Part shown: piece after piece, positions 1,503-11,589 of the stretch
Layout of the letters: every line of letters begins with the position of its first letter
Position numbering within the stretch: position 1 is the first letter of the stretch
Source of the DNA: an uncultured Angelakisella sp.
GTDB lineage: Bacteria > Bacillota > Clostridia > Oscillospirales > Ruminococcaceae
Direction of reading: 5' to 3'
Assembly: GCA_904420255.1 (NCBI GenBank)
Contig: CAJFUT010000018.1
Location: 1-12,087, forward strand
Length of the DNA stretch: 12,087 bases
Notes under the pieces: generated by a model
Told to the model about the DNA's origin: nothing
The model's input: only the letters and a program-made list of their open reading frames with translations
The model's database searches: none
Made by a program: the position numbers and the translations under genes

Positions 1503-2600
1503 ATGCAAACCACCATGCTGACCCCCTACACTGTGGGGCCTGACGCCATGGATATTCTGGGGGAGCTTTTCCCCCGTGGAAGCCGGCTGCTGGTGATCGG
1601 TGGGAAAACCGCCCTGGAGAAGAGCGGCCCCGCCCTGGCCCGGGCGGCGGAGAAGGGAGGGCTGGCCCTTCTGGGGCCCCTTTGGTACGGGGGCCAGTGC
1701 AGCCGGGAGAACATGGAGAAGCTGACCGCCTGGGGGAAGGAGCTGGAACCCCAGGGGGTGCTGGGCATCGGCGGCGGCAAGGCCATCGATACCGCCAAGG
1801 GGGTGGCCCGGAACCTGGGACTGCCCCTGGTGACGGTGCCCACCATCGCCGCCACCTGCGCCGGGGTCACCCGGCTCTCGGTGGTTTACCAGCCGGACGG
1901 GGCCTTTGAAGGATTTATCTTCCATCCCGCGCCGCCCCTCCACTGCGTCATCCCCTTGGAGATCATCGCCCAGGCCCCGGCCAAATACCTCCGGGCCGGG
2001 ATGGGGGACGCCCTGGCCAAGCACCTGGAATGCACCATGGCCAGCCGGGGGGGCCGGCTGAACCACAGCTCCGCCATGGGGGTGGCCCTCAGCGCCGTCT
2101 GCGGGGAGGTCACCCTTTCCCAGGGGAAGGCGGCCCTGGCCGACTGCGCCGCCGGGAAGGCGGGCCCCGCCCTGGAGCAGGCCGTCCTGGGGAACATCGT
2201 CACCACCGGCATGGTGGCCTCCCTGGTGGACGAGGCCTACAACGGGGCGGTGGCCCACTCGGTCTGCTACGGCCTCACCGCCCTCCCCGGCCTGGAGGAG
2301 CGGCACCTCCATGGGGACCTGGTGGCCTACGGCACCCTGGTCCAGACCGCCCTGGACCAGCCGGAAAAGCTGGCCTCCCTGGGCCCGGCCCTGGCGGCCA
2401 TGGGCTTCCCCGTCAGCCTCCGGGAGCTGGGGCTGGACCTGGGGAAGGACGGGACCCTGGTGGAAACGGCCCTCACCGCCGCCCTGGCGGGCCCGGATAT
2501 GGAGCGCCTGCCCTACCCTGTAGCCCTGGAGGACCTGAGCCGGGCGGCGGCGGCGGTGGAGGCGGCCGGCTTCTCCCGGGGTGGATATTTGAATGGATAA
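1503..2600 (+). CDS. Iron-containing alcohol dehydrogenase family protein, HcxA/GldA-like
   Basis: A 365-residue NAD(P)-dependent dehydrogenase of the GldA branch. Visible motifs are the cofactor-binding GIGGGKAIDTAK (about 88-99), TVPTIAATCA (111-120), and the divalent-metal ligands D169 (GMGDALAK), H252 (AHSVCYGLT) and H270 (LHGDLVAYGTLVQ). All three ligands are intact. From memory the PTIAATCA segment followed by LSV, and the C-terminal LPYPVALEDL, resemble E. coli HcxA (YbdH), which reduces 2-oxoacids such as 2-oxobutyrate. A hydroxycarboxylate or 2-oxoacid dehydrogenase is thus at least as likely as glycerol dehydrogenase. I chose ATG 1503 for its GGAAGGAGG site; the in-frame ATG at 1458 has no ribosome site and adds 15 Arg-rich residues. 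It is monocistronic, with a 6-bp GC hairpin (1417-1442) in its leader. Confidence 0.85.
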   Translation: MQTTMLTPYTVGPDAMDILGELFPRGSRLLVIGGKTALEKSGPALARAAEKGGLALLGPLWYGGQCSRENMEKLTAWGKELEPQGVLGIGGGKAIDTAKGVARNLGLPLVTVPTIAATCAGVTRLSVVYQPDGAFEGFIFHPAPPLHCVIPLEIIAQAPAKYLRAGMGDALAKHLECTMASRGGRLNHSSAMGVALSAVCGEVTLSQGKAALADCAAGKAGPALEQAVLGNIVTTGMVASLVDEAYNGAVAHSVCYGLTALPGLEERHLHGDLVAYGTLVQTALDQPEKLASLGPALAAMGFPVSLRELGLDLGKDGTLVETALTAALAGPDMERLPYPVALEDLSRAAAAVEAAGFSRGGYLNG

Positions 2601-2699
2601 ACGCATATTTTTTCATTAATTTTTTCAGATTTATGTAAAATGACCAGTTTTTTTCTGGAAAACATCGGGTTTATTTCAGGAGAAAATGAATAAAAGCCC

Positions 2700-2734
2700 T
2701 TTACAACGCCGGAAGATGAGTGTATAATCATACA
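2700..2734 (+). promoter_or_regulatory. Promoter with palindromic operator over the -10 (amino-acid importer operon)
   Basis: TTTACA (2700-2705), 17 bp, TATAAT (2723-2728): the same hexamers and spacing as the promoter at 1355. The operator TGTATAATCATACA (2721-2734) is palindromic except for one central pair, and GTG/CAC extends it by one pair to 16 bp. It is an ARG-box-like site in the same register over the -10, so a bound repressor would occlude RNA polymerase. GGAA occupies spacer positions 6-9. The AT-rich stretch 2601-2699 just upstream could act as an UP element. No convincing terminator separates the dehydrogenase gene from this promoter, so some read-through is possible. Confidence 0.75.
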
Positions 2735-2770
2735 CACAACAAGCAAACACATTTGAAGGAGGACCCAGGA

Positions 2771-2827
2771 ATGAACAGAAGCCCTGCCGGCTGCCGGACC
2801 TTCCTTTCCCAGGAGCGACGACGATAA
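2771..2827 (+). CDS. Arginine-rich leader peptide ORF upstream of the ABC importer
   Basis: An 18-codon ORF starts 8 nt after a perfect AAGGAGG (2756-2762), a better ribosome site than that of the main gene, and encodes MNRSPAGCRTFLSQERRR. Five of 18 residues are arginine, and the last three codons before TAA are CGA CGA CGA (2816-2824), whereas neighbouring genes use mainly CGG and CGC. It lies between the promoter (predicted transcript start near 2735) and the binding-protein gene at 2888. Codons 11-13 contain TTCCTTT (2801-2807), which can pair with AAAGGAG (2873-2879) of the downstream ribosome site. A ribosome paused at the CGA run could relieve that pairing. No T-tract follows, so terminator-type attenuation is unlikely. 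I know of no named homologue; the sensing role is inference. Confidence 0.62.
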   Translation: MNRSPAGCRTFLSQERRR

Positions 2828-2887
2828 GCTCCGGAGCATATTCAGAAAGAAGCAACTGCCGTCATTGAGATAAAAGGAGTATGAATC

Positions 2888-3904
2888 ATGAAACTGAAAA
2901 AGCTGATGAGCGTTCTGCTGGCTGCCCTGATGGTGGCCGCCCTGGCCGCCTGCGGCGGCACCCCCGCTTCCTCCGCCTCCTCGGAAGCCTCCTCCGGGAG
3001 CGCCTCTTCGGAAAGCGCCTCCTCGGAAGCTTCCTCCTCTGAGGCCGCTTCCTCCTCCGACAGCACCATCGCCGACCTGGCCGCCAACCAGGATGGCCCC
3101 TCCAACGCCGCCGGCATCGGCCTGCCCGATGTTTCCAACGTGGACCTGGAGGCCCTGGAGGCCGAAATCGACGAGCTGGCCGCCAAGGTTACCACCGTCA
3201 GCGACGGCAAGCTCACCATCGGCACCTCCGCCGACTTCGCCCCCTATGAGTTCCACATCCTCCAGGACGGCCAGGATATGATCGTGGGCTTCGACATCGC
3301 CCTGGCCCAGGCCATCGCCGACGAGCTGGGCGTGGAGCTTGAGGTGCGGGACATTTCCTTCGACTCCATCCTGATGGAGCTCAACTCCGGCAGCATCGAC
3401 CTGGGCCTGGCGGGCTTCTCCCCCACCCCTGAGCGGCTGGAAGCGGTGGACATGAGCCTCCTCTACTACACCGGCGGCCAGTCCCTGATGATCAAGAAGG
3501 CGGACGCCGAGAAGTTCAAGAGCTTTGAGGACTTCGGCGCCGGCACCTCGGTGGGCGCCCAGACCGGCTCCATCCAGGAGGGCCTGGCCAAGGAGAACAC
3601 CCCCGACGCCTCCCTGGTTTCCCTCCAGACCGTCCCCTCGGTCATCATGGACCTGAAGACCGGCAAGATCGACGGCGCCTTCATTGAAACCGCCGTGGCG
3701 GTGGGCTATGTGGCCACCCAGGACGACCTGATGATCCTCTGCGATGTCCCCTACGACTCCGAGGGCTCCTCGGTGGCCGTCAAGAAGGGCAACGAGGATA
3801 TGCTGAACTTTGTCAACGCCGTCATCACCAAGGTGGTAGCCAACGGCAGCATGGACCAGTTCGTGGCCGAGGCCAACGAGCTCCAGGCCCAGAGCATCAG
3901 CTGA
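2888..3904 (+). CDS. Amino-acid ABC transporter substrate-binding lipoprotein
   Basis: A 338-residue secreted lipoprotein: basic N-terminus and hydrophobic core (1-21), lipobox LAAC with Cys22, then a Ser/Ala/Glu linker (about 25-60), an acidic stretch (61-105), and a family-3 periplasmic-binding domain from about 107. Family hallmarks are TIGTSADFAPYEF (110-122), GFDIALAQAIADELG (134-148), TPERLEAVDMS (180-190) with Arg183 expected to hold the ligand carboxylate, and SVGAQTGSIQEG (221-232). The length exceeds typical members (about 260-280 aa) because of the linker, which probably carries the domain across the cell wall. AAGGAG lies 8 nt before the ATG. It is the first full gene of the importer operon and is followed by a strong hairpin. 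The ligand cannot be read with certainty; a polar or basic amino acid such as arginine is suggested by the leader and operator. Confidence 0.93.
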   Translation: MKLKKLMSVLLAALMVAALAACGGTPASSASSEASSGSASSESASSEASSSEAASSSDSTIADLAANQDGPSNAAGIGLPDVSNVDLEALEAEIDELAAKVTTVSDGKLTIGTSADFAPYEFHILQDGQDMIVGFDIALAQAIADELGVELEVRDISFDSILMELNSGSIDLGLAGFSPTPERLEAVDMSLLYYTGGQSLMIKKADAEKFKSFEDFGAGTSVGAQTGSIQEGLAKENTPDASLVSLQTVPSVIMDLKTGKIDGAFIETAVAVGYVATQDDLMILCDVPYDSEGSSVAVKKGNEDMLNFVNAVITKVVANGSMDQFVAEANELQAQSIS

Positions 3905-3927
3905 TCCCGCCCCGCGTCAGAAAAAAT

Positions 3928-3952
3928 CCTCCCCCGGCGCCCCCGGGGGAGG
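3928..3952 (+). terminator. Strong GC hairpin between binding-protein and permease genes
   Basis: CCTCCCCCGG (3928-3937) pairs perfectly with CCGGGGGAGG (3943-3952) around a 5-nt loop. It is preceded by six A residues but followed by only three T residues. This suits a leaky terminator or an RNA-stabilising, 3'-end-protecting hairpin that keeps the binding protein more abundant than the permease and ATPase, a common arrangement in ABC importer operons. Confidence 0.7.
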
Positions 3953-3998
3953 TTTCACCGTATGAGCGGGCAGAACAACAACGGGAAGGAGATCAGCC

Positions 3999-4727
3999 AT
4001 GACATTCAACTTCGCCCCTATGCTGAAATACGCCCTTTATTTCCGGCAGGGGGTCATTTATACGGTGCTTCTCTCCGCCTGCACCGTGGCCATCGGCTTT
4101 GTGCTGGCCATGGCGCTGGCGCTGATGCGGATCGCGAAGCCCGGCCGGAGCGCGGTAAGCAAGGTGCTGGTGAAGGCGGCCCACGCTGTTTCGGGGGTCT
4201 ATATCGAAATCATCCGGGGCACCCCCATGCTGGTGCAGCTTTTCATTGTTTACTACATCGTGTTCGGGCCCGGGGGGTTCTCCGCCCCGGAGTTTGACCT
4301 TTTCGGATTCATCAGCGGGGAGCAATTTGTCCCCGGCATCATCGCCCTCTCCCTCAACAGCGGCGCCTATGTGGCGGAAATCGTCCGGGCCGGCATCCAG
4401 GGTGTGGATTACGGCCAGACCGAGGCCTGCCGGAGCCTGGGCATGACCCGGTTCCAGAATATGCGGTACATCGTGATGCCCCAGGCCATCAAGAACATCC
4501 TCCCCGCCATCGCCAACGAGTTTGTCACCATCATCAAGGAATCCTCCGTCTGCTCGGTGATCGGGATGCAGGAGATCATGTTCAACGCCAAACTCGTCCA
4601 GGGCGCCAGCTTCATGCCCGGCGAGCCGCTGCTCATCGCCGCGGCCCTCTACCTCTGCCTGACGGTGCCCACATCCAAGGTCATCGCCTATTTCGAAAGG
4701 AGGATGCGCAGTGGCGACCAGCGGTAA
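3999..4727 (+). CDS. Amino-acid ABC transporter permease
   Basis: A 242-residue inner-membrane permease of the HisM/ArtQ type. Hydrophobic segments are near 17-45, 64-90, 111-130 and 208-232. The family signature [17 protein letters not shown] (70-86) and the cytoplasmic EAA loop contacting the ATPase, [20 protein letters not shown] (142-161), are both intact. GGAAGGAG sits 8 nt before the ATG. Only one permease gene is present, so the channel is probably a homodimer. Its end overlaps the ATPase gene by 17 nt, indicating translational coupling. It works with the upstream binding lipoprotein and downstream ATPase. Confidence 0.95.
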
Positions 4728-5457
4728 CCTCATCGAGGTAAAGGACCTCTGCAAATATTTCGCGGGAGGCAAGATCAAGGCCCTGGACCATGTGAGCCTT
4801 TCCATCGACAAGGGGGACGTGGTGGTCATCGTGGGCCCCTCGGGAAGCGGCAAGTCCACCTTCCTGCGCTCCCTGAACCTCCTGGAGGAGCCCACCTCCG
4901 GCCAGGTGATCTTCGAGGGGGTGGATATCACCGGCCGGGGGGTAAACATCGACCTTCACCGGCGGAAGATGGGGATGGTGTTCCAGCACTTCAACCTGTT
5001 TCCCCACCTCACCATCCTCCAGAATATGACCCTGGCCCCCATGAAGGTGAAGAAGACGCCCCAGGAGGAGGCCGAAAAGCTGGCCCTCTCCCTGCTGGCC
5101 CGGGTGGGGCTGGAGGACCGGGCCAACGCCTATCCCATCCAGCTTTCCGGCGGCCAGAAGCAGCGGGTGGCCATTGTCCGGGCCCTGTGTATGCAGCCGG
5201 ACGTGATGCTCTTTGACGAGCCCACCTCCGCCCTGGACCCCGAAATGGTGGGGGAGGTGCTGGAGGTGATGAAGTCCCTGGCCCGGGACGGCATGACCAT
5301 GGTGGTGGTGACCCACGAAATGGGCTTTGCCCGGGAGGTGGGCACCCGGGTCATCTTCATGGATGAGGGGAAGATCGTGGAGGAAAACACCCCCGAGGAG
5401 TTTTTCACCCACCCCAGGAGCGAACGGCTCCAGGACTTTTTGGCCAAGGTGCTTTGA
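4711..5457 (+). CDS. Amino-acid ABC transporter ATP-binding protein
   Basis: A 248-residue cytoplasmic ATPase of the polar amino-acid uptake type (GlnQ/ArtP/HisP). Walker [10 protein letters not shown] is at 42-50, Q-loop [11 protein letters not shown] at 91-101, signature LSGGQKQR at 145-152, Walker B VMLFDE at 165-170, D-loop SALD at 173-176 and switch His202. The segment before the signature ([15 protein letters not shown]) and the C-terminal [16 protein letters not shown] are typical for the subfamily. The start is GTG at 4711, 7 nt after AAAGGAGG (4696-4703); the ATG at 4704 belongs to the permease frame. It powers the permease encoded just upstream, with which it overlaps. A strong terminator follows. 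Confidence 0.96.
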
Positions 5458-11188: not shown

Positions 11189-11420
11189 AGCACCAACAAC
11201 TTGATGCGCGTGAAATGCAGTGATTGAGGAAAGTAGTCCCTCCACGGTTCTCCCAGAGAGCCCCGGGCAGCTGAAAACGGGGCAGGATCGGGCTGGATGA
11301 AGTTCCCTCAGGAGCAGTGGGCTGAACTTGCAGTAGGCTTCACCGGGACTTCCGCCGTTATCGGGAAGGGGATATGTTGGTATCCTGAAAAACAGTCACT
11401 TTGGGTGGTTGCGGGTTATG

Positions 11421-11452
11421 ATGCTCGTCCCTTGGCGGGGCGGGTGTTTTTT
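11421..11452 (+). terminator. Extra upstream terminator within the T-box leader
   Basis: An 11-pair stem (11421-11431 with 11437-11447, several G-U pairs, CGTCCC/GGGGCG core) around TTGGC is followed by a run of T to 11452. Just before it, GGG-TGGTTGC-GGG (11403-11415) resembles the T-box bulge TGGTACC with TGGT kept and ACC replaced by TGC. Together they look like a degenerate first antiterminator/terminator module. Confidence 0.65.
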
Positions 11453-11543
11453 ATTTCCATCCAGGGGCGGCTTCCGGGAAAACCGGCGTATCTCCAGTGA
11501 GTGGCGGCGCTTCTGCCGCAAAACGAGTGGTACCGTGGGCGAT

Positions 11544-11589
11544 GGCTCACCTCGTTCCCCCTTGGGGGGGAGCGGGGTGGGCCTTTTTT
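11544..11589 (+). terminator. T-box terminator hairpin (main)
   Basis: The 5' arm 11544-11561 pairs at all 18 positions with 11566-11583 (three G-U), loop TTGG, followed by six T residues. Its 5' arm contains GCTCACCTCGTT, the 3' half of the antiterminator, so the two structures exclude each other. Confidence 0.95.

Follow-up and report, generated by a model that had tools for sequence, protein, structure and literature searches.

A short open reading frame that closes on three CGA arginine codons lies between the promoter and the first gene of a putative basic-amino-acid ABC importer in an uncultured Angelakisella species, and an equivalent leader precedes the same importer in six of the eight species of the genus whose upstream region is readable, this one included. 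Comparison of these sequences indicates that the leader ORF is genuine and under selection, and it probably works as an arginine-decoding sensor. The fuller reading, namely an arginine-sensing leader peptide gene that serves the importer and acts post-transcriptionally by way of a hairpin, appears to us evenly balanced.

The window, i.e., the whole stretch of 12,087 nucleotides analysed here, is contig C18 of genome G000, an assembly of 1.98 Mb in 331 contigs that is 81% complete. The binding protein encoded directly downstream of the leader matches TIGR01096 (Lys/Arg/Orn binding protein) at 115.7 bits, below the cut-off of 256, and the PDB entries 4i62, 4h5f and 4ymx, each with an E value of 1e-43 or better, which we take to be arginine-bound or part of an Arg/Lys/His transporter. 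Judged from these matches, the imported substrate would be a basic amino acid, probably arginine. The leader is an SD-led ORF on the same strand as the importer genes, with which it presumably shares a transcript. Re-reading of the sequence agreed with the preliminary description of an 18-codon ORF with a Shine-Dalgarno (SD) site, a CGA CGA CGA end and five arginine codons, the other two being AGA (codon 3) and CGG (codon 9). Between the binding-protein and permease genes there is a strong hairpin (3928-3952; 10 pairs, nine of them GC), which scores as terminator-like on the minus strand and is perhaps a processing or stabilising stem.

Features of the leader and importer region (window positions unless another locus is named)
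Feature	Coordinates	Strand	Remarks
Promoter	2700..2728	+	-35 TTTACA 2700-2705, 17-nt spacer, -10 TATAAT 2723-2728; 11/12 consensus letters, 0.4 expected
ArgR-like operator TGTATAATCATACA	2721..2734	+	overlaps -10; 11/14 letters of an ARG-box consensus
Leader Shine-Dalgarno AAGGAGG	2756..2762	+	8 nt 5' of ATG; SD in 6/6 leader species
Leader peptide ORF, 18 codons, MNRSPAGCRTFLSQERRR then stop	2771..2827	+	ATG 2771, TAA 2825-2827; equivalents in six species
Short predicted hairpin, GGAG 2812-2815 with CTCC 2829-2832	2812..2832	+	four pairs with probability >0.5
CGA CGA CGA, proposed sensor of charged tRNA-Arg	2816..2824	+	adjoins stop; 18/18 terminal Arg codons CGA, six species
Leader stop codon	2825..2827	+	position constant, codon variable: TAA x2, TAG x2, TGA x2
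Spacer, leader stop to importer start, 60 nt	2828..2887	+	importer SD AAAGGAG 2873-2879; 60-75 nt in six species
Substrate-binding lipoprotein, basic-amino-acid-type ABC importer	2888..3904	+	best NCBIfam match TIGR01096
Importer permease	3999..4727	+	TIGR01726, 57.6 bits, over cut-off of 42.2
Importer ATPase	4711..5457	+	amino-acid importer ATPase matches, e.g. GlnQ 323.8 bits, below equivalog cut-off of 379
Leader of G005 paralogous importer	L267 1517-1603 (G005 C33, about 21871-21957)		stop close 5' of importer SD

Ten genomes of the genus, all with some binding-protein match, were compared. Eight of them gave a readable sequence ahead of the closest importer gene (G000, the window genome, and G001, G002, G004, G005, G007, G008 and G009); G003, which ends within the gene, and G006, whose best match is 29% identical, were left out. 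The arginine-codon leader proposed for the window is borne out in the six carriers by a constant architecture: an SD, a start codon, two CGA codons, a third CGA either adjoining them or one codon further on, and a stop directly after. Four leaders end in an uninterrupted run (window QE-RRR-TAA, G004 PQ-RRR-TAA, G009 FQ-RRR-TAG, G001 FQ-RRR-TAG), and two contain the extra codon (G005 QL-RRGR-TGA, G002 EL-RRSR-TGA). This single codon is the only length difference inside the CGA word and keeps the frame; the start codon, ATG except in G001 (GTG), reads into the run in frame in all six. Conservation of arginine is confined to the three terminal codons, whereas AGA codon 3 and CGG codon 9 vary among relatives. 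The leader bodies, from start to run, show a mean identity of 50%, against 46% for shuffled sequences (15 pairwise alignments, range 39-71%), the highest values being found for G009/G001 (71%), window/G001 (57%) and G005/G002 (55%). Measured from the putative mRNA start, the CGA run sets in at 84-87 nt in five species and at 73 nt in G002.

Relatives that have the importer without the ORF, which the preliminary description had counted as evidence against it, do exist, namely G007, G008 and the relatives scanned outside the genus, where no leader was found; they stand against the six species that carry it. A motif search over 141 loci, many of them overlapping, returned occurrences in genus loci only. 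In the scan of relatives, starts were taken by rule, and among L062-L141 one locus gave no row (L103), two no start (L070 and L132), and L064 ends at the gene. In the importer tree, which includes six loci from outside the genus, G007, G008 and the outside loci are split with a support of 0.97 from G003 and all species with a leader. Since the leaderless loci share one side of this split, the topology fits a single gain of the leader; alternatively, it may have been lost in G007 and G008.

The run was also looked for away from this importer. An exact-pattern search with CGACGACGATAR in 396 genomes of the family matched 14 genomes, four of them genus genomes with the leader, and gave 15 matches in total, against 26 for the backwards control; in the other ten genomes the matched text was judged to be coding sequence or a chance occurrence. 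The search for the CGACGANNNCGATGA form covered the genus genomes only. Within the ten genus genomes, three pattern searches recovered the importer leaders and one further case, the remaining matches being judged by their matched text. This further case precedes a paralogous importer of G005, which has its own SD-led 28-codon ORF (MKEFFCIFSVPFHRRTSFFSNIFSLKSG then stop) with CGA CGA in frame, placed in the middle of the ORF and not at its end. A match in G002 beginning MDQINPRR belongs to an ordinary protein of 352 amino acids and not to a leader, and a DNA search matched mostly lipoprotein signal sequences.

The choice of codon is as constant as the residue, all 18 terminal arginine codons being CGA. 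In the nine control ORFs of the window (one counted in part) CGA makes up one of 100 arginine codons, in agreement with its having been described as uncommon in the neighbouring genes, and in segments of the importer genes from eight species of the genus it makes up two of 208. Codon identity alone is a modest argument, because invariant columns with a single codon are common in the importer genes (125 of 418 over six species); among the 17 invariant arginine columns, seven use one codon throughout (five CGG, two AGG), and none uses CGA. Occurrence of the rarest codon at every terminal place is stronger evidence.

Among the 46 of 54 tRNA matches that could be typed in G002, tRNA-Arg genes with the anticodons ACG, CCG, CCU and UCU are found once each, and UCG is absent; the eight untyped matches comprise seven of at least 81 nt and a weak one. 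Within that typed set, tRNA-Arg(ACG) is the one possible reader of CGA in this genome, and it would presumably decode CGA after A34-to-I editing. In G001, 27 of 34 matches were typed, ACG and CCU included, and in the window genome 17 of 29, with UCU and CCU present and ACG absent among those typed. In a his-leader reporter, tRNAs for CGU, CGC and CGA are reported to be poor readers of CGA and arginine pairs containing CGA to release attenuation strongly, CGA CGA being slow even under rich conditions (PMC4046918). CGA may nevertheless be dispensable for sensing, because rare and frequent arginine codons functioned equally in the speF leader (PMC6386406).

A predicted RNA structure surrounds the run. 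With folding from the putative mRNA start to 45 nt inside the importer gene, five of the six species, i.e., all but the window, are predicted to form a hairpin that brackets the CGA run with 12-18 pairs of probability above 0.5, the 5' arm lying in the leader body and the 3' arm beyond the stop. The fraction of shuffled sequences doing as well is 0.21 in G004, 0.02 in G009, 0/300 in G001, 0.10 in G005 and 0.02 in G002, so that the hairpins of G004 and G005, taken alone, are not significant. The short hairpin of the window is weaker than the other five and no better than shuffles (fraction 0.25); a possible longer alternative pairing, of 2790-2798 with 2830-2837, was seen by eye. Because the arm sequences differ between species, each leader was tested with its own spacer against swapped assignments, and the native assignment was equalled or beaten by seven of 720, itself included. 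A cruder test on leader-spacer duplex energies gave a weak 40 of 720; the folding-based test is preferred, because several duplexes in the cruder one had long loops.

With a modelled ribosome footprint of about 28 nt, a ribosome that has the first CGA in its A-site covers 69% (G004), 45% (G009), 74% (G001), 52% (G005) and 98% (G002) of the bracketing pairs, and one at the stop covers 32, 14, 26, 7 and 17%, respectively. The short hairpin of the window is covered in both positions alike. In these models the geometry suits a switch between stalling and reaching the stop in the five relatives, to which the reading is confined, and we place a hairpin switch of this kind just short of an even chance.

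Several other readings of the run would dispense with sensing through codons. Strict nucleotide conservation of CGACGA...CGAT would also suit a binding site in the DNA or RNA, open in one frame by chance, with no leader peptide; this is highly improbable given the SD-led in-frame start in all six species, the use of three stop codons and of one GTG, and a length difference of exactly one codon. A nascent peptide could instead be the signal, with R-X-R or RRR before the stop arresting the ribosome and arginine, ornithine or a macrolide/ketolide (drugs that favour Arg/Lys-X-Arg/Lys) as the trigger. R-X-R is indeed found in all six endings (RRR, RRGR, RRSR), and a uORF with Arg-Leu-Arg has been described before hflX (PMC8632094). 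Yet selection on the peptide would permit CGG or CGC where only CGA is seen, the remainder of the peptide is unconserved, the gene downstream encodes an importer, and the leader of the G005 paralogue has CGA CGA without R-X-R, all of which leaves a peptide signal distinctly unlikely. The run might also be a constitutive speed bump or a 5' ribosome shelter that stabilises the message or spaces ribosomes regardless of arginine. The slowness of CGA CGA under rich conditions would agree with this, and ArgR-like control could supply the arginine response; such an arrangement leaves unexplained why arginine codons stand before an arginine-type importer, and do so again at the G005 paralogue, and we give it a small probability. 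Decoding of arginine codons is the reading retained in what follows.

For the output step, the preliminary description had proposed that TTCCTTT within the leader (2801-2807) pairs with the importer SD and that a ribosome stalled on the CGA run, at low charged tRNA-Arg, frees this SD for translation. The complementarity does exist, but equal complementarity occurs in 46% of 500 shuffled leaders, and the predicted pair probability in the window is only 0.016-0.029. Across the six species the corresponding shuffle fractions are 0.46, 0.04 (G004), 0.11 (G009), 0.67, 0.58 and 0.25; in four of the species the complementarity is no better than that of shuffles, and the G004 duplex, which beats 96% of shuffles, is nonetheless imperfect. 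Opening the core of the importer SD costs 0.6-2.7 kcal/mol in all modelled states (mean unpaired probability 0.33-0.76), and a parked ribosome changes this cost by at most 1.0 kcal/mol, in either direction. For the SD together with the start region the cost likewise moves both ways, from 4.1 to 2.1 in G009 and from 1.9 to 3.3 in G002; these models ignore ribosome and folding kinetics. Predicted structures in the six species gave no case of erm/cat-type masking of the SD that a stalled ribosome opens. On these pairing probabilities and opening costs the SD-freeing half of the proposed model falls while its sensor half stands, and classical translational attenuation through the importer SD is very unlikely. 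Transcription attenuation controlled by the leader, through an intrinsic terminator or Rho, deserves mention since a leader with a hairpin over its stop resembles the 1:2 stem of classical attenuators. However, no hairpin followed by a T-run was found, by the criteria applied, in any of the six leader regions, and a simple scan of 2500-4100 found no terminator-like site on the plus strand, as had been stated, and one on the minus strand (3952-3928), where shuffles average 1.4. Rho was over the TIGR00767 cut-off in none of the ten genus genomes, against eight of 14 controls; weak matches of 62-67 bits to the Rho profile in five genus genomes were attributed to other ATPases. Completeness is below 90% in seven of the ten genomes, and the remaining three are likewise without a Rho match over the cut-off. 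We regard transcription attenuation, too, as very improbable.

Since terminator, Rho and SD masking are all unsupported, an effect on the life of the mRNA or on ribosome access remains for the arginine-decoding leader. RNase J family proteins are over the cut-off in eight of the ten genus genomes, and control of mRNA decay is the output that we tentatively favour. As a separate observation, folding predicts a pairing of TTCCTTT with the SD of the leader itself (2756-2762 with 2801-2807) at a probability of up to 0.69, and in the window species such pairing could throttle initiation on the leader.

Translation of the leader, stalling, polarity and output are what we infer from these comparisons, and they can be joined as follows. 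The CGA run directly before the stop would be the sensor and tRNA-Arg(ACG), which carries a wobble inosine and pairs inefficiently with CGA, its reader. A shortage of charged tRNA-Arg would stall the leader ribosome on the run, some 80 nt into the mRNA, where it would hold open the hairpin that joins the leader body to the sequence beyond the stop; when arginine is plentiful, the ribosome would reach the stop and the hairpin could close. Importer yield would then be set by an effect on the mRNA, through decay or ribosome access, and not by a terminator, Rho or SD masking, and would most likely be higher at low arginine. In its most specific form, the leader would be restricted to one codon, in a bacterium with no Rho detected, and would measure the charged, inosine-containing tRNA-Arg(ACG) through its weakest pairing, CGA, with the ribosome beside the stop protecting or refolding the importer mRNA; we consider this form rather unlikely. 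A conserved arginine leader on an importer, built on the rarest codon and with no terminator, detectable Rho or masked SD, would represent a rarely seen type of post-transcriptional sensing by codon speed, and the leader would report in a compact, natural way on charged tRNA-Arg(ACG).

A second layer of control may operate at the promoter, which has a similar counterpart in each of the remaining seven readable species of the genus. In all eight promoters, those of leaderless species among them, the -10 element is overlapped by a near-palindrome, TGTATAATNATNCA (TGTATGATAATACA in G008), that matches 11-13 of the 14 letters of an ARG-box consensus, letters of the -10 itself contributing to the match. 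In the window, a higher-scoring ARG-box-like site (12) is located 98 nt upstream of the -35 element. The summed best ARG-box scores of nine promoters, with the -10 region included, were above those of all 200 shuffles; this region had been brought into the scan after a first look, and the tenth promoter was left out, none being recognised there by pattern. Sites upstream of -35 alone are uneven, with single-locus shuffle fractions from 0.00 to 0.93, the sum again beating 200 of 200 shuffles, and even with the -10 region the single-locus fraction stays above 0.15 in three of nine promoters, reaching 0.58 in one case. ArgR family proteins are found in nine of the ten genus genomes, four of them over the cut-off. 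An ArgR-like operator and the leader together would make a dual control, by free arginine and by charged tRNA-Arg, and would place the importer, if this holds, under a double control like that of the trp operon.

The closest precedents are speF ORF34, rbfL and the TgApiAT1 uORF, none of which is a bacterial importer leader. Like the leader described here, ORF34 of Salmonella speF is a short leader ORF with consecutive arginine codons, in which the mRNA past the stop folds differently depending on whether the ribosome pauses, when arginine is low, or reaches the stop, with output through mRNA stability; it differs in its target, ornithine decarboxylase, in using Rho and RNase G, and in being gammaproteobacterial (PMC6386406). 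ORF34 also has a conserved peptide domain, DUF2618, with whose core the window peptide shares, by eye, only an arginine pair, and homology is not apparent, because the leader bodies here are unconserved. A Firmicute example is rbfL of Staphylococcus aureus, which senses arginine limitation through rare arginine codons and scarce tRNA-Arg; there, however, the codons are AGA/AGG, and the stalled ribosome blocks the rbf RBS, which overlaps the leader, so that low arginine represses (PMC13009471), whereas the importer RBS here is 60-75 nt away. In Toxoplasma, the arginine transporter TgApiAT1 is under post-transcriptional uORF control and goes up at low arginine; the system is eukaryotic, and there the peptide encoded by the uORF is reported to be critical (PMC8370653). 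No bacterial arginine-codon leader on an importer was among the matches listed in the open-licence PMC literature; most subscription journals lay outside this scope, and such a gap is not proof of absence.

Among established mechanisms, erm/cat translational attenuation has a drug-stalled leader ribosome that opens a hairpin and unmasks the SD, which can be accompanied by stabilisation of the mRNA. The leader described here differs from it in both respects, since the trigger there is a drug and the downstream SD is masked, whereas the importer SD here is not predicted to be masked. The G004 importer operon has two binding-protein genes in tandem (L042 / L062 616-2584), the leader preceding the first. 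Firmicutes are thought to prefer T-boxes and riboswitches to leader peptides for amino-acid control. T-box leaders (RF00230) resemble the present case in sensing aminoacyl-tRNA before amino-acid importers in this phylum; at the leader, however, Rfam at the gathering threshold gave nothing, RF00230 included, and sensing would use a translating ribosome. Arginine T-boxes occur in other clostridia; none was among the matches listed in the open-licence PMC literature. The sole RF00230 match of the window (100.2 bits, 11211-11557) precedes a second importer-type binding protein, an ORF that starts at about 11659, runs off the window and by eye is presumably TrpX-like, so that the same 12-kb stretch offers a contrast between the proposed leader peptide and a T-box before another importer.
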